DNA of 24,981 nt, taken from positions 1-24,981 of IMG/VR virus record IMGVR_UViG_3300048447_000344; one strand, 5' to 3'. The notes beneath the pieces are model-generated. The model was given only the letters and a program-made list of their open reading frames with translations. It ran no database searches and was not told the DNA's origin. Every line of letters begins with the position of its first letter. The stretch's first letter is position 1. Shown here one piece after another: positions 3,461 through 21,783 of the stretch. Source of the DNA: a virus. A program made the position numbers and the translations under genes.

Positions 3461-3483
3461 TTTCGATAAGATGATCTAATAAG

Positions 3484-3511
3484 GGAGGGGTCTTGACACC
3501 CCTCCTTTTTT
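3484..3511 (+). terminator. Rho-independent terminator after the outer-membrane-like gene
   Basis: A perfect 8-bp stem, GGAGGGGT (3484-3491) with ACCCCTCC (3498-3505), has a 6-base loop (3492-3497) and is followed by TTTTTT (3506-3511). It lies 23 bases after the stop codon. The loop and the first base of the 3' arm form the -35 box of the promoter listed next. Confidence 0.9.
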
Positions 3512-3521
3512 ACTATATAAT
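3493..3521 (+). promoter_or_regulatory. Consensus sigma-70 promoter embedded in terminator, drives hli-petF cluster
   Basis: TTGACA (3493-3498), a 17-base spacer and TATAAT (3516-3521): all 12 positions match consensus with ideal spacing. The predicted start is near 3528, giving a leader of about 17 bases with AAGGA (3537-3541) before the hli ATG at 3545. The -35 box occupies the loop of the upstream terminator and the spacer contains its U-tract. The host RNA polymerase should read it early in infection. Confidence 0.85.
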
Positions 3522-3544: not shown

Positions 3545-3754
3545 ATGACTACAGTAACTGAAGACGGTGGACGTACAAACATGTACGCTACAGAACCACA
3601 AATGTACACTGATCCTTCTTACACAGAAAGATACGGTCTTGAAACCCACGCAGAACGTGCAGAAAAAGCAAATGGACGCTATGCTATGTTGGGTATCATC
3701 GCAGGATTCATTTCGTATGCTGTGACTGGTAACTTTTTCTTTGGTATTATTTAA
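3545..3754 (+). CDS. hli: High-light-inducible protein (Hli)
   Basis: 69 aa. An N-terminal polar stretch of about 35 residues is followed by the chlorophyll-binding helix motif ERAEKANGRYAMLG (38-51) and a hydrophobic single transmembrane segment ending FFFGII. Hli/Scp proteins sit in thylakoids, bind chlorophyll and carotenoid, and protect photosystem II under excess light. In phages they are thought to preserve photosynthesis during infection. It is the first gene after a consensus host-type promoter and directly abuts the ferredoxin gene, whose ATG follows its stop with no gap. The family is multi-copy; a second, shorter copy lies at 4443. Confidence 0.93.
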   Translation: MTTVTEDGGRTNMYATEPQMYTDPSYTERYGLETHAERAEKANGRYAMLGIIAGFISYAVTGNFFFGII

Positions 3755-4715: not shown

Positions 4716-7700
4716 TTATGCCTGTGCTTCTGTCCAGGAAATTCTGAAGTCAATTGCACGACGGTTTGAACCACGACCACCACCAATGTTGGTGACTTGA
4801 ATTCCTAGTACCTCAGGACCATCAGGGAATACACCTGTTGGGTTAGGTGGAGTAGTAGCAGTAAGACTAGAACCACCACCACCTAGAATAGAGTTAGAAA
4901 TTTCTTTGACTCGTCCTAGATCATAATCAGACACTCCATTATCAGCATAGAATCCATAGATAACTTCACCACCAACAAGTTCGTTGTTAACAATACCCAA
5001 ACCTTGTGTAAGGTCAGCGTATTGTGCTAATGATGTACCACCAACACCTTCCCAGGCAACGGTGTTAGTAATGTTTGGATTAAGAACTAGTTCCACAAAG
5101 AAAGGACCATTAGCAGACACCTCAGCGGTTCTTAGAACCAACTGCATTCTGTTAACCAACTCTCTTTCACCAAACTGTCCAGGGATACCATTATCAACTG
5201 AAGGTGCTGTACGAATAGCAAGTAGTGCCTTAGTCTGTCCAGAGTTAATCTCACGACCAGTTCTAGTACCAACTGTATAGACATATGCTCGGTCATCGTC
5301 ATATAGACCTTCCATAATGACTGATGAACCCCAGTGACTAATCTGTGGTACTGATGTTGCACCTAGAAGTTCGAGACCAGTTGGTTGTGTACTACTATAA
5401 GTAAACGTTTGTGCTGAAGCAGAACCTAAAGGTGAGAATATAACACCAGTAGGATTAGTTACTGTTACTGCTTTGCTCAGTTGAATAACTGTGCCGCTAA
5501 TGTCATGTACAAATGTATCAGCAGGAATACCAGTAGCAATTACTCTCTGTCCTTTCTGGATACCAGAAGCATTACTTACAGCACCCTGTGACTCACCACT
5601 ATTAATTGTAATGGTTACACTGGTAGCACCTGCTTGTTCTCTAGTAACACCAGTAAAGATACCTGAAGTAGCTGTTGCTAGTGGTGATAGTTCTGAACCA
5701 GTTTGACTTGTAAGTGTCTTAGCAACAGCAGAAGGTCCACTATTCTCGGAGATAGTAAAACCACCAGTCGTAGTAGATACAACATAGTAAACTTTATTTG
5801 CTGCAATGTTTGCAAACGGTGTGTCAAATTTAACTGTTTGAACACCACCACCACTTAGACCAACAGTACTAGAGACTGAAATCTGATTGTTACCTGAAGT
5901 AGTTGCAGTAACATTTTGAATGTATGATGTTCTACCTGTGTAATTAACATATTCCTGAATTCCAGTAGTAGCACCAGTAGTTTTTCTTACACGTAGTGTT
6001 CCAGAATTAGGGAAGTGAGTAGGAGCATCAGCAATATAGATGCTAGTGTCACCAGTAGCAATTGATTTAGTAGATGTCGTGCTTGGAGGAACAGTACTTA
6101 CTTCATAACGAGCAGGTAGGTTACCTGATCTCATGTATGCCTCAGTGTTAGCATTGTTGTTAGGAATTTTGTGTGCATAGATTACATTACCATTCTCTGC
6201 TCGGAATCCCCAACGAATAAATCCAGCACCATACCAAGAATAATCCATGTAGAACATCTGCATCTTAGTTACGTCAATTGAGTAACCAGTTTTACCAGAA
6301 CCATCACAACGGTCAATGTTCCAATCAGATTGATTCCATTCAGTCTCTACAGTTTTAGTGATGGGAACATTAGTTGCTGATGGACCACGATAATCAGGGA
6401 AGATTACCATTTGGGTATCAGAAATAATACCATCAACACGGTATGAAGTACCACGAATAACAACATAGTCACCAGGTTCTAGTTGCTTGGAAAACTTAGT
6501 TCCTTGCAGGTTAGCACCAGTGTAACTAGAAATTAATGTGTTTCCATTAGTAACTGTAATTTTACCTGACAACTGATAAGTAGAAGTTCTGCGAACAACA
6601 CTCAAGTTTCCACTTGCATATCTAAAAAACAAACCATTTTGTTGGTCTTGCATACCAATTTCAAGTCTAGTACCAAACCCACCGACAGGAGTTACGGTAT
6701 ACTCACCAGTTGCAGCTGCCTCTGTTGGTGCTGAACTAGTTTCGTATTTAAATGTGTATGGATCAACAACATTAGTAACTTGGTACTGTCCATTGTAGTT
6801 ATTATCACCACAATTTCTTACATCAACGATTGTATCTCTAGTAACATTATGTGCAACAGCACTAACAACAGTTACAGTTGTTCCTGATGCTGTAATGCTA
6901 TCAATGTTTTCAATAGCAGGTTCTAGAATAGAACCCGTGGAGAATGCTACACCTTTACCAGATTGATAACGGAAGTAACGTTTGGTCTGTCTGATTGCCT
7001 GTTGGTTCTTAGAGAAAGAATTAGTTGAAAATTTAACACCACCATCAAATGCTCTGTGGACAGAAGATCCTTGTGGTCTAGGATATAGTTTAATAGTACC
7101 TGAACTTACGCCACCTGTGGGAGCAGAAGTTGGGAAGTAGAAGAATGTATTTGGATCTTGTACTCTAGCAACAACCCATGATCCATTTACATTAGTTCCT
7201 GAAGATCCAGCAACAGCAATTTCATTACCAACTTCAAATCCATGTGCTTGCGATGTATTTACCTGAACAGAACCAGACATATCACCACCAGCAGCTGCTA
7301 GAGTAATTGTTCCACCTACAGATGATGCTGTGTAGTGGATGCCGATATAAATTGCAGTTCTTGCGGAGTCAAAGATGTTTGTTTGACCAGCAGTCCATTC
7401 ATATGTACCTGTATACTTGAAACTTGTGGAGTCAGAACTATCAACAATAAAGACACCATCAGCACCTGGAAAGGAAGTATCTTGTACGTAGATAGCACTA
7501 CCTGCAGCAGGTGGAGATGAGCATGATACTTCCATCTCTCTCAAGTTATTACTATTAGCACCAGCCTGAATCTCTGTGATAGCAATATTTGTAGTAGACT
7601 TATATGCAAATGGGTTGTTGTTGATCATTGTCAACGATTCCCACTTGGTACTCTGTGTACCATATTCAAAGTCAGTATCAATTTGTGATTGAGGGGTAGA

Positions 7701-15972: not shown

Positions 15973-16006
15973 TTGACAAAACTTCAGAAATGAAGTATTA
16001 TAAATA
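15973..16006 (+). promoter_or_regulatory. Overlapping early (sigma-70) and late (gp55) promoters of psbA
   Basis: TTGACA (15973-15978), a 17-base spacer and TATTAT (15996-16001) form a near-consensus host-type promoter. The last three bases of TATTAT are also the first three of an exact TATAAATA late box (15999-16006). The spacer contains the perfect inverted repeat ACTTCA-GAAA-TGAAGT (15981-15996), which could be an operator. Both promoters would give a long leader (about 155-160 bases). This is the main control signal in the 310-base gap 15860-16169. Confidence 0.78.
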
Positions 16007-16017
16007 AATGAGGCAAG

Positions 16018-16121
16018 TTAAGGAACCAACACATTTCTTAATGCTTCGCAACACTCCATAAACCGAGACCTATAGGGTGTTTAAACACGTCTCTAATACC
16101 TATGACTGAGGGTGTCATAGG
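16018..16121 (+). promoter_or_regulatory. Folded psbA mRNA leader with competing hairpins
   Basis: Hairpin 1: TTAAGGAA (16018-16025) with TTTCTTAA (16034-16041). Hairpin 2: GAGAC (16065-16069) with GTCTC (16089-16093), enclosing the palindrome GTGTTTAAACAC (16077-16088). Hairpin 3: CCTATGAC (16099-16106) with GTCATAGG (16114-16121). An alternative pairing, AACACTC (16050-16056) with GGGTGTT (16075-16081), would break hairpin 2. The last part of the leader (16122-16169) looks open and has no Shine-Dalgarno before the psbA ATG. Known psbA genes are controlled at mRNA stability and translation; such a role here is inferred. Confidence 0.55.
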
Positions 16122-16169
16122 AATACTTACCAGTGTTTCCCTGCACTATTTCTAACCCTTTTCAAAACA

Positions 16170-17246
16170 ATGGCTTCAACACTTTCAAGACAACAAACAA
16201 CCCCATGGCAGAATTTCTGTGAGTGGGTGACATCAACTAACAATCGTCTCTACGTCGGTTGGTTTGGTGTACTGATGATCCCAACTCTGTTGGCGGCAAC
16301 CATCTGCTTTATCGTTGCTTTCGTAGCAGCACCCCCCGTCGATATTGACGGCATCCGTGAACCCGTCGCTGGTTCACTCATGTATGGTAACAACATCATC
16401 TCTGGTGCAGTTGTCCCATCCTCCAACGCAATTGGTCTTCACTTCTACCCCATCTGGGAAGCAGCATCACTCGATGAGTGGCTGTATAACGGTGGTCCTT
16501 TCCAACTTGTAGTATTCCACTTCCTCATTGGCATCTATGCATATATGGGACGTGAGTGGGAACTTTCCTACCGTCTAGGTATGCGCCCCTGGATCTGTGT
16601 TGCATACTCTGCTCCAGTCGCTGCAGCATCTGCTGTATTCCTGGTCTATCCTTTCGGTCAAGGTTCTTTCTCCGATGCGATGCCTTTGGGTATCAGTGGT
16701 ACATTTAACTACATGCTTGTCTTCCAAGCAGAGCACAACATTCTCATGCACCCCTTCCACATGCTCGGCGTAGCAGGTGTCTTCGGTGGTTCATTGTTCA
16801 GTGCAATGCACGGTTCATTGGTTACTTCCTCACTCGTTCGTGAAACGACTGAAACAGAATCACAGAACTATGGTTATAAGTTCGGACAAGAAGAAGAGAC
16901 ATATAACATCGTTGCAGCACATGGCTACTTCGGTCGTTTGATCTTCCAATATGCTTCATTCAATAACTCCCGCTCCTTGCACTTCTTCCTGGCAGCATGG
17001 CCTGTAGTTGGAATCTGGTTTACTGCACTGGGCGTAAGCACCATGGCATTTAACCTCAATGGATTCAACTTCAACCAGTCCATCCTCGACGGACAAGGAC
17101 GTGTCCTTAACACATGGGCCGACGTGCTCAATCGTGCAGGACTCGGAATGGAAGTCATGCACGAAAGAAATGCACATAACTTCCCGCTTGATCTTGCAGC
17201 AGCTGAGTCCACACCTGTGGCCTTGATTGCTCCATCTGTTGGTTGA
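16170..17246 (+). CDS. psbA: Photosystem II D1 protein
   Basis: 358 aa, full length and uninterrupted (no intron). D1 is the fast-turnover core of photosystem II. Seen, with standard numbers one higher than these: Tyr160 (redox TyrZ), Asp169 (Mn ligand), His189, His197 (P680 ligand), and the C-terminal NFPLDLA with processing expected after Ala343. Glu129 (standard position 130) in [12 protein letters not shown] matches the high-light form (D1:2) rather than the Gln130 form. The QEEETYN segment is normal. Phage copies replace host D1 lost to photodamage. Codon use is host-like and richer in C at third positions than in psbD. It has its own promoter, structured leader and terminator; the divergent neighbour is the fibre block. 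Confidence 0.99.
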
Positions 17247-18564: not shown

Positions 18565-18786
18565 ATGTCTTGCAATCTTCGAGTTAAAATGTTAGATGCT
18601 CTACTTGCTGATGCCCAAGGTAATATTGCCAAAGCAAAAGCAAACGTAGAAGTATACCTACACAATCCTGTTGGTATTGGTGAGCACCCTGATGTGCTTG
18701 CTGCTATTCAAGAGCAGGTAGATATTATTGCTCATGAACAAGAGCGTATTGAAGTTATTCAGAATCACTTTAGTGAACATGAGTAG
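18565..18786 (+). CDS. Small helical cyanophage protein, unknown function
   Basis: 73 aa starting MSCNLRVKMLDALLADAQGN. It is almost entirely helical with heptad-like leucine/alanine spacing, and the middle reads VYLHNPVGIGEHPDV before a second acidic helix (IQEQVDIIAHEQERI). This arrangement recalls a short protein common in T4-like cyanophages, with no assigned function. The last 8 bases overlap the Cys-rich microgene that follows. No clear Shine-Dalgarno. Confidence 0.68.
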   Translation: MSCNLRVKMLDALLADAQGNIAKAKANVEVYLHNPVGIGEHPDVLAAIQEQVDIIAHEQERIEVIQNHFSEHE

Positions 18787-18856
18787 AGGATGCTGTGGTG
18801 CTGGGTGTCGCGACTGCCCGTTCAGACCACCTCCTAAACCGACCACCACTCCTTGA
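18779..18856 (+). CDS. 25-aa cysteine-rich microprotein (CC-x3-C-x2-C)
   Basis: ATG 18779 overlaps the upstream stop; the stop TGA 18854-18856 lies within the following terminator/promoter. Residues 1-15 read MSRGCCGAGCRDCPF: four cysteines in CC-x3-C-x2-C spacing followed by Pro, then a proline/threonine tail. The motif resembles the 'CCGxGCxxCPY' core of small bacterial DUF5522-type proteins, so a zinc- or iron-sulphur-binding knuckle is plausible. Function unknown. A very short product, supported by the ordered cysteines and the 8-base overlap. Confidence 0.55.
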   Translation: MSRGCCGAGCRDCPFRPPPKPTTTP

Positions 18857-18871
18857 CAGGGGTGGTTTTTT
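18845..18871 (+). terminator. Rho-independent terminator whose loop is a -35 box
   Basis: ACCACTCC (18845-18852) pairs with GGGGTGGT (18859-18866; one G-T pair), followed by TTTTT (18867-18871). The 6-base loop is exactly TTGACA. It ends the psbD-side transcript and overlaps the last codons of the Cys-rich gene. Confidence 0.82.
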
Positions 18872-18881
18872 ATTGTATAAT
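18853..18881 (+). promoter_or_regulatory. Consensus sigma-70 promoter embedded in terminator, drives the pur operon
   Basis: TTGACA (18853-18858), a 17-base spacer and TATAAT (18876-18881): 12 of 12 consensus positions. The -35 box is the terminator loop and the spacer holds the 3' stem arm and U-tract. The predicted start is near 18888, which is the A of the first ATG of the next gene. It would drive the 17-gene plus-strand chain with purS, purC and purM. Confidence 0.85.
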
Positions 18882-18887
18882 GACTTC

Positions 18888-19067
18888 ATGGCAAATATAG
18901 GTATGGACAAAATTGACACCCAAGGCATGAGTCTTCCTGGCAAATCAAAGAAACCAAGTAGATATGATCCTATGCCAGTAAAGCATCGTACAATCTTCAC
19001 GCCAGAAGAACGCATAGAATTGAAACAAATTATTCATGAAGCACTTGACGAGAGAGAACAAGCATGA
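18888..19067 (+). CDS. 59-aa hypothetical protein at the head of the pur operon
   Basis: Begins MANIGMDKIDTQGMSLPGK; the middle is basic (KSKKPSRYDPMPVKHR) and the end is an acidic helix (TPEERIELKQIIHEALDEREQA). ATG 18888 falls at the predicted transcription start, so translation from it would be leaderless; ATG 18903 or 18927 are alternatives, the latter with AAGG 4 bases before it. No family recognised. The last four bases (ATGA) overlap purS, implying coupling. Confidence 0.62.
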   Translation: MANIGMDKIDTQGMSLPGKSKKPSRYDPMPVKHRTIFTPEERIELKQIIHEALDEREQA

Positions 19068-19339
19068 AGTTTAAAGCATTAGTATTCATCCGACTACGAT
19101 CACAGGTAGATGACTCACCAGGTAATGCTGTGAGAGATGGTAGTAGACGATTGTCTGAGTTGGACATCAAGAAACTTAGACTTGGTAAGGTCATTGATAT
19201 TTGGTTGGAAGCAGAGAGCAGAGAGTATGCCGAGAAAGAAATTGAAATGCTTTCTGATCGTTTCTATGCCAATACAGTCATGGAAGACTGGGACTATGAA
19301 TTGACTGAGATTGAAACTTTTCCACCAGGTATTGAATAA
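19064..19339 (+). CDS. purS: PurS, small subunit of FGAM synthase
   Basis: 91 aa, a little longer than bacterial PurS (about 80-85). Seen: start MKFKALVFIRLRSQVDDSPGN, the family pattern of a first strand, 'D..GNAV' and a helix; then LRLGKVIDIWLEAE and a second helix, ending in ANTVMEDWDYE, which matches the family's 'NPVIEDY'. PurS holds PurL and PurQ together in phosphoribosylformylglycinamidine synthase (step four of purine synthesis). PurL and PurQ are not in the window, so the protein would work with host subunits or phage genes elsewhere. Confidence 0.85.
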   Translation: MKFKALVFIRLRSQVDDSPGNAVRDGSRRLSELDIKKLRLGKVIDIWLEAESREYAEKEIEMLSDRFYANTVMEDWDYELTEIETFPPGIE

Positions 19340-19533
19340 TGGAATTTAACACACCAGGATCCAATAAGAGTTGGATGGACGATGGATTCAAGAAGTATGC
19401 TGCTGAATGGCAACTCAATAATATTGAGAAACTATTGGATGCTAAGGTAGAACGCTGCCATGTATACAACAGTGACGACCGAGATGTAGTATATAATCAA
19501 ATTACTATTACATACAAAATGGAGGATGATTAA
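19339..19533 (+). CDS. Small hypothetical protein between purS and purC
   Basis: 64 aa. Starts MEFNTPGSNKSWMDDGFKKY with a helix (AAEWQLNNIEKLLDA) and a beta hairpin (VERCHVYNSDDRDVVYNQITITYKMEDD). It shares one base with the stop before it and one with purC after it (TAATG on both sides), so it is translated with the purine genes. No family recognised. Confidence 0.65.
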   Translation: MEFNTPGSNKSWMDDGFKKYAAEWQLNNIEKLLDAKVERCHVYNSDDRDVVYNQITITYKMEDD

Positions 19534-20231
19534 TGGAAATAATTGTAGAGGGTAAGGTCAAGACTGTTTACCAAGGTGATGATGCTGATCGTGTCATCAT
19601 TGAGTATCACGATAAAGTGACAGCAGGCAACGGTGAGATGGTTGATCATCCATTGGGTAAAGGATCTCTATGTTGTACTATCTCATCTGTTATCTTTGAG
19701 AAACTTGCCAAGGAACATGTTCCTAATCACTACATCAATATGGTTGGTGCTAACAAGATGATTTGCAAGAAAGTAGACATCGTTCCTCTGGAAGTTATCT
19801 GTCGTAATCGTGCTGCTGGATCTATTGTTCGTGAGACAACGCTACAAGAAGGTTATTCTCTACCACATCCTATTGTTGAGTTCTTTCTTAAAGATGATAG
19901 CAAGCATGACCCTTTACTAACTAAAGATCGTGTGCGTCTGATGGGATATGATCCTGAACCTTTTATTGACTTGACTCTACGTATCAATGACATCCTCCGT
20001 TCATTGTTCTACATCTTAGGTATTGATCTGGTTGACTTTAAAGTTGAGTACGGATACACTGCTCATGGTGAGTTGCTACTTGCTGATGAGATCAGTCCTG
20101 ATAGTATGAGACTATGGAAGATTGGTAGCGATGAACGATTCGATAAGGATCTATTCAGAAACGATGAAGGTGATATTGTCCCTGCTTATCGTCAAATCCT
20201 TGATAAACTGCAACCACTTGCAATCCAATGA
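19533..20231 (+). CDS. purC: SAICAR synthetase (PurC)
   Basis: 232 aa, near the usual bacterial length (about 235-240). Seen: EGKVKTVYQGDD near the N-terminus (ATP-binding P-loop-like KxK), DKVTAGNGEM, PLEVICRNRAAGSIVR (85-100), the signature LLADEISPDSMRLW at about 182-195 (family: ADEISPDxxR), and the acidic end. Reaction: CAIR plus aspartate and ATP to SAICAR. Bacterial-type, single-domain. It sits in an overlapping gene chain with purS and purM, feeding phage nucleotide demand together with talC-derived ribose. Confidence 0.95.
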   Translation: MEIIVEGKVKTVYQGDDADRVIIEYHDKVTAGNGEMVDHPLGKGSLCCTISSVIFEKLAKEHVPNHYINMVGANKMICKKVDIVPLEVICRNRAAGSIVRETTLQEGYSLPHPIVEFFLKDDSKHDPLLTKDRVRLMGYDPEPFIDLTLRINDILRSLFYILGIDLVDFKVEYGYTAHGELLLADEISPDSMRLWKIGSDERFDKDLFRNDEGDIVPAYRQILDKLQPLAIQ

Positions 20232-20663: not shown

Positions 20664-20860
20664 TGGCACTATCTGACTCAGTTCAAAACTCACTTGATGG
20701 TGCAGAATCATCACTACGCAATGCCCTGGCATTTGCTGCCAGACAAGAACGTCCCATTGTTTGTACCCAAATTTCCAAGATGATTTCTGACATTGAGAGT
20801 ATCGGAACAATGGACGAACTTCTTGACACACTTACAGACCTTTCTGATAAAAATAAGTAA
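20663..20860 (+). CDS. Small helical hypothetical protein before purM
   Basis: 65 aa: MALSDSVQNSLDGAESSLRN, then ALAFAARQERPIVCTQISKM and an acidic helix (DIESIGTMDELLDTLTDLSDKNK). Predicted all-helical. It shares one base with the stop before it and one base with purM (TAATG). No family recognised; conserved-looking small proteins are typical of this part of cyanophage genomes. Confidence 0.65.
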   Translation: MALSDSVQNSLDGAESSLRNALAFAARQERPIVCTQISKMISDIESIGTMDELLDTLTDLSDKNK

Positions 20861-21783
20861 TGGATTACAAAACTTCTGGCGTTGACATTATCAAAGGACG
20901 TTCCTTTGTAGAGTATATCAAAGCACTAGCACCTAGTGTTGGTGGGTTCAATGGAATGATGGAGCTCCCATCAGGATATGAGAAACCTGTGTTGGTATCT
21001 GGTGCTGATGGGGTTGGAACTAAGATTAATATCTGTAGAATTGCTAACGATTACAGCACTATTGGTATCGATCTGGTTGCTATGTGTGTCAATGACGTTA
21101 TATGTTCTGGCGCTAAACCATTATATTTTCTAGACTATATCTCTACCAAATCACTCGATGCTAACGTGAGTGAAATCGTACATGGAGTTGCTACTGCTTG
21201 TGCTATGGCAGGAATGGAACTCCTAGGTGGAGAAACAGCAGAACATTACAGAGCAACTGACTATGACCTTGCTGGTTTCTGTACTGGTGTTGTAGAGAAG
21301 TTTGAGATTGTTGACGGTAGTAACATCAGACCTGGTGATGTAGTAATTGGTATTGAGAGTAGTGGTCTTCATAGTAATGGATACACACTGGTCAATGATA
21401 TGTTGTGGAGAAATTACATCTACTATAAGGAGATGCCTGAGTTGCTAACACCAACCACCATCTATGCCCGTCTCATTCAGCACCTGTTAGATGAAGTTCC
21501 TATCCTAGGCATGGCACACATCACTGGTGGAGGACTGCCTGAGAACCTTCCACGATGCCTTCCAGCAGGTCTTACGGTTGATGTTGATTACAATGCTTGG
21601 GAACGACCTGAGTTGTTTAATAAGATTCAGGAAGCAGGAGACATTACTGAGGATGAAATGCGTAATGTATTCAATCTTGGTATTGGATTCTGTTTGGTGG
21701 TGCCAAAAGAAGTAGTAGAAGACACTCAAACTTTTATTGCTGCCACAGGTCTGGAATCATGGGTTATTGGTACAGTTAAGTGA
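20860..21783 (+). CDS. purM: AIR synthetase (PurM)
   Basis: 307 aa, shorter than bacterial PurM (about 345). Seen: start YKTSGVDI, LVSGADGVGTKI (47-58), TIGIDLVAMCVNDVICSGAKPLYFLDY, GGETAE followed directly by HYRATDYDLAGFCTGVVEK (the bacterial 'MPGMY' insert after GGETAE is missing), SSGLHSNGYTLV, AHITGGGLPENLPR and FNLGIGF. Reaction: FGAM to AIR with ATP (step five). The shorter length seems spread over loops rather than a broken end. It starts one base into the previous stop and ends at the GTGA start of the oxygenase-like gene. Confidence 0.95.
   Translation: MDYKTSGVDIIKGRSFVEYIKALAPSVGGFNGMMELPSGYEKPVLVSGADGVGTKINICRIANDYSTIGIDLVAMCVNDVICSGAKPLYFLDYISTKSLDANVSEIVHGVATACAMAGMELLGGETAEHYRATDYDLAGFCTGVVEKFEIVDGSNIRPGDVVIGIESSGLHSNGYTLVNDMLWRNYIYYKEMPELLTPTTIYARLIQHLLDEVPILGMAHITGGGLPENLPRCLPAGLTVDVDYNAWERPELFNKIQEAGDITEDEMRNVFNLGIGFCLVVPKEVVEDTQTFIAATGLESWVIGTVK

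Follow-up and report, generated by a model that had tools for sequence, protein, structure and literature searches.

Here we report an element at positions 18853-18881 of the viral record IMGVR_UViG_3300048447_000344 that, with a probability of about 0.8, is a compact promoter-terminator cassette, in which a transcriptional terminator, a sigma-70 early promoter and a probable recombination joint are interlocked in one stretch of DNA. The whole record of 24,981 nucleotides was analyzed and is referred to below as the window. Photosynthesis and nucleotide genes carried by cyanophages change the metabolism of their hosts throughout the oceans. A dispersed cassette that stops one transcription unit and starts the next at the joints of exchanged gene blocks would offer a concrete, testable mechanism for how these genes are swapped and kept under control. 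The interlocked geometry would also represent a very compact natural insulator-promoter part, one that could be tried out by synthetic biology in cyanobacteria.

Structure of the element and its genomic context

The element contains a -35 hexamer TTGACA (18853-18858) and a -10 hexamer TATAAT (18876-18881) separated by a 17-nt spacer, which is a 12/12 match to the consensus and bears out the positions given in the preliminary description of this DNA; the predicted transcription start lies near 18888. In the minimum-energy RNA fold, the 5' arm ACCACTCCT (18845-18853) is paired with the 3' arm AGGGGTGGT (18858-18866), with a free energy of -13.4 kcal/mol and a z-score of -2.7, and the hairpin leads into the T-run of a predicted intrinsic terminator (18866-18871). 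The -35 hexamer had been described as being exactly the terminator loop. It does sit at the hairpin tip, but the fold resolves it into the tetraloop TGAC (18854-18857) and the closing T-A pair. The 17-nt promoter spacer is made up of the hairpin 3' arm and the T-run. The hairpin is preceded by an upstream box at 18826-18844, here ACCACCTCCTAAACCGACC, with the consensus CCACYTCCNNAACYGTCAC in the dispersed cassette family described below, where the box is kept directly after stop codons and ~45-65 bp before the expected start site. A role of this box as an antiterminator that pairs with the 3' arm was rejected on inspection, since the box stays constant when an arm base changes. All features of this module, of the second module and of the genes up to PurS are located on the plus strand.

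The last large gene before the terminator is a match to phrog_1811, with no function assigned (18565-18786). A possible Cys-rich ORF of 25 amino acids, MSRGCCGAGCRDCPFRPPPKPTTTP (18779-18856), has its TGA stop inside TTGACA; five ACG-2014 phages retain its core CCGAGCPDCPFRPP(P/S), and most of the changes among them are synonymous. The first gene of the downstream block matches phrog_1286 (18903-19067), and the homology of other phages begins exactly at 18903. It is followed by the annotated pur genes encoding PurS (19064-19339), SAICAR synthetase (19533-20231) and PurM-like AIR synthase (20860-21783), in agreement with the earlier placement of the element before a pur operon. On the upstream side, a PhotoRC-II RNA (16039-16134) lies between a near-perfect promoter, TTGACA-N17-TATTAT (15973-16001), and a photosystem II reaction-centre gene (16170-17246).

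A second element of the same design had been noted at 3484-3521, and we found it as described, including its different stem. Its hairpin (3481-3508; stem 3481-3491/3498-3508, loop CTTGAC at 3492-3497) has a free energy of -18.2 kcal/mol and a z-score of -3.5, and its sigma-70 promoter TTGACA-N17-TATAAT (3493-3521) is set in the same register as at 18853, upstream of a high-light-inducible gene (3545-3754). These two modules hold the only perfect TTGACA-N17-TATAAT matches in the whole 24,981-nt record, with none on its reverse strand. The broader pattern TTGACA-N5..14-TTTT-N0..12-TATAAT occurs twice in the window compared with 0.01 expected, and two occurrences were reached in no shuffle. The stems of the two modules are unrelated in sequence and each derives from a separate dispersed family, which rules out the simple duplication of one element. 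No Rfam model matched at either module, and their identity as a known structured RNA was rejected on this ground.

Enrichment of the interlocked design

To place the window in a wider context, 1391 terminators were predicted in 11 complete cyanophage genomes, and sigma-70-like promoters with a score of at least 10/12 were positioned relative to the loop centre. The -35 positions formed a sharp single peak at the loop centre, with 17 promoters at offset 0 and a background of 0.45 per nt, so that the earlier view of a repeated design, as opposed to a duplication, extends to complete genomes. In total, 24 interlocked modules were counted in the 11 genomes versus ~1.35 in block-wise dinucleotide shuffles, an ~18-fold enrichment; the check proposed in the preliminary description, namely that the pattern be commoner than in shuffled genomes, thus came out in its favor. 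Individual cyanophage genomes contained between 0 and 6 modules, with 0 in Syn9, and shuffled genomes contained 0-0.3. Perfect versions are uncommon: of the 16 reference records, just 2 contained the strict pattern.

A strong hairpin around the -35 was present in 15 of 137 promoter-plus-T-run matches listed for IMG/VR, compared with 0 of the 118 matches listed for a reversed-pattern control (p 6e-5) and 1 of the 120 matches listed for bacterial genomes (p 5e-4). The single bacterial case was weak and AT-rich, and a general bacterial design was therefore rejected. T4 and RB49 contained no interlocked modules with the -35 in the loop, and the Vibrio phage KVP40 contained three modules of a shifted type, near copies of one another, with the -35 at the border of the 5' arm and the loop; in this form, the design is therefore not a trait of all T4-like phages. 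It is also present in unclassified IMG/VR contigs. Hence, the interlocked design is general but sparse, and it occurs beyond cyanophages too. The earlier term "general cyanophage punctuation module" captures its repetition across cyanophages, but the modules are few per genome, are not exclusive to this group, and are not unprecedented, given the promoter-early stem-loops (PeSLs) compared below.

A dispersed cassette family with covarying arms

The 18853 element belongs to a dispersed family of cassettes of ~58 bp with the consensus CCACYTCCNNAACYGTCAC-AGCACTCC-TTKACA-GGGGTGCT-TTTTTATTG-TATAAT. When the loop and the 5' arm were left free in the search, a stem of at least 6 bp was found in 135 of the 138 family members among the matches listed. 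The loops of these 138 listed members have on average 4.2 of 6 matches to TTGACA, and only at a spacer of 17. The paired arms covary: at the second stem pair, 83 distinct hairpins among the matches listed include 42 with C-G and 30 with G-C, and mismatches are few. Such compensatory change points to selection for pairing, with the reservation that part of the arm sequence was set by the search patterns and evidence can be drawn from the free positions alone. The cassettes start right after adjoining upstream stop codons, most commonly with TAA at -4, and the distance from the -10 to the next start codon is ~27 nt.

Alternative explanations

The reading of the element as a combined terminator and promoter was weighed against three alternatives. 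According to the first, which we consider unlikely, only the hairpin and the T-run are under selection as a terminator, and the resemblance to a promoter follows incidentally from the AT-rich tail and a favored TTGAC loop. TGAC or TTGAC loops are indeed found at some terminators that have no -10 (43 of the 66 whose loop carries a good -35), and many family members have an imperfect, degraded -35 (TTCACA, TTGCAC), so that some of them may act as weak promoters or solely as terminators. However, a -10 is more likely to follow terminators that have a TTGACA-like loop (odds ratio 5, p 9e-8), and TATAAT is retained in 96 of the 138 family members among the matches listed, in the exact 17-nt register. 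Natural variants argue against a terminator-only element as well: in contigs L508 (11910), L552 (9559) and L553 (3771, minus strand), the left half of the cassette and a spaced promoter TTGACG-N17-TATACT are kept, whereas the 3' arm of the hairpin is lost. A further comparison is offered by the T4-type late promoter TATAAATA, which is enriched 10-30 nt after terminators in the 11 cyanophage genomes and is seen in this position in T4 too. Stop and restart are joined in this arrangement as well, but the late promoter lacks a -35 and none of its signal is thus held in the loop, and the commonest loop at these terminators is the ordinary TTCG, not TTGAC.

According to the second alternative, the hairpin acts at the DNA level, as a cruciform or a protein site, and regulates a promoter with a structured spacer, with no terminator involved. 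The location of the stem inside the promoter and the extra conserved upstream box would fit such a role. We nevertheless regard it as very unlikely, because the T-run directly follows the stem, the stems have the folding energies usual for terminators, and the cassettes stand immediately after stop codons. In addition, the same hairpin is joined to late-promoter genes: in contigs L401 (917), L453 (974, minus strand), L538 (609) and L481 (1039), it runs straight into TATAAATA and one shared gene, which is present without the cassette in L551 and L461. Finally, an overlap by coincidence in AT-rich phage DNA, which can produce single cases in shuffled genomes, is refuted by the shuffle and reversed-pattern counts and by the existence of a conserved family with covariation.

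Comparison with known systems

PeSLs reportedly combine an early promoter with a terminator of the stem-loop type and mediate the shuffling of gene modules. The criteria for PeSLs include measured transcription termination and the formation of mini-circles. The 18853 element resembles them as a small composite in which a sigma-70-like early promoter is joined to a stem-loop terminator; it is dispersed between plastic genes and probably linked to modular gene shuffling. As judged from its sequence, the element has a strong sigma-70-like early promoter (12/12, spacer of 17 nt) and a terminator stem-loop joined to it (stem, T-run, fold energy and covariation). The family provides several dispersed related copies in plastic regions, up to 4-5 per contig, and different genes are joined at them in related phages, where purC, purS, the nrdC region, 2OG oxygenases and others come after psbD and the cassette. 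PeSLs have been described in the T4-like phages RB49/phi1, T4/PST and KVP40/nt-1 (Arbiol 2010 and Comeau 2014, as cited in an excerpt of PMC4503421); in the same excerpt, the PeSL density of S-PM2 is judged too low to explain the gain of an ORFan region.

The geometry of the 18853 element differs from the tandem arrangement of RB49. There, the promoter comes after the stem-loop, 20-50 nt past the loop of the terminator, whereas in cyanophages the loop forms the centre of the -35. KVP40 has an 18-nt spacer and a -35 overlapping both the 5' arm and the loop, whereas the cyanophage spacer consists of the 3' arm and the T-run. T4 showed no promoter peak near its terminator loops. The element is best read as a putative interlocked cyanophage form of the known T4-type PeSL cassettes, with a geometry different from that of RB49.

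Two other viruses offer partial parallels. For halovirus HF2, the abstract of PMC8707807 reports short dispersed intergenic repeats of 58 bp and 29 bp, cloned copies of which were tested as promoters by reporter assay; HF2 differs in being an archaeal virus, and the abstract describes no interlocked terminator. In Kayvirus 515A1, the early promoter p98 was located by RNA-seq immediately after the terminator t97 (excerpt of PMC7698491), an arrangement that differs in being tandem, with no interlocking described in that excerpt.

Proposed mode of action

In the proposed mechanism, RNA polymerase arriving from the psb block would pass through the inverted repeat, which is GC-rich, and into the T-run, and would stop near 18872. 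The duplex form of the same DNA would constitute a consensus sigma-70 promoter, with the -35 in the loop, the spacer formed by the 3' arm and the T-run, and then the -10, from which the host RNA polymerase holoenzyme could begin the pur block near 18888. Every gene block would become an insulated early transcription unit, with its stop and start signals sharing ~40 bp. Each part of this mechanism has support in the sequence, while termination, initiation, their timing and recombination at the cassette are inferences. In single-molecule work, a polymerase that has terminated often remains on its template and is able to start again, mostly in the opposite direction (PMC6978322), which makes a direct coupling of stop and restart possible but speculative. 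Near-identical cassettes between many different genes might also supply short homologies for the exchange of gene blocks.

Cassettes at mosaic gene joints

In 8 of 11 reference genomes, the similarity to the window is interrupted within the 18853 cassette. BLAST breakpoints at the two modules were found in 8/11 and 6/11 genomes, and ordinary gene ends (psbD, hli) scored 9-10; since such ends collect breakpoints too, the counts suggest but do not prove recombination in the cassette, and breakpoint enrichment was discarded as proof of it. At some loci, joints were observed within the cassette itself, and at four loci its left half is joined to a late-promoter gene.

The gene next to the cassette varies among related phages. 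After psbD and the cassette, the following gene is purC in ACG-2014e/i/j and purS in ACG-2014b. The cassette is followed by an unannotated gene and then nrdC in S-RIM44 and by 2OG oxygenases in S-CAM9, and the order in S-SKS1 is psbD, cassette, insert, cassette, purC. In ACG-2014e/j, the window block 18903-19518 has its counterpart at a long distance from the cassette, at ~16 kb, and ACG-2014h has a 315-bp insert between the Cys-rich ORF and the cassette. These arrangements are consistent with a likely evolutionary role of the module as a dispersed cassette at mosaic gene joints.

A match to the consensus cassette, with 89.9% identity over 89 nt, also adjoins psbA in the T7-like podovirus S-RIP1. 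The corresponding match at L686 3001-3088 (HQ317388 43525-43612) covers the cassette together with the start of its downstream gene, a combination otherwise found in T4-like myoviruses, and may be taken as a sign of transfer between phage families. We give an even chance to the broader proposal of a mobile regulatory unit, in which the ~58-bp interlocked cassette would pass from one phage family to another (T4-like myoviruses and a T7-like podovirus), make each captured gene an insulated early transcription unit, and supply the homology through which cyanophages trade auxiliary metabolic genes, the pur and psb blocks among them.

The upstream box was found in at least 82 IMG/VR stretches. S-SKS1 has six cassette matches at E<=0.01, and the 6.9-kb contig L538 carries four cassettes with single genes between them. 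In the cyanophage contig L454, three cassettes occur together with a group I intron (6347-6631) and a PhotoRC-II RNA.
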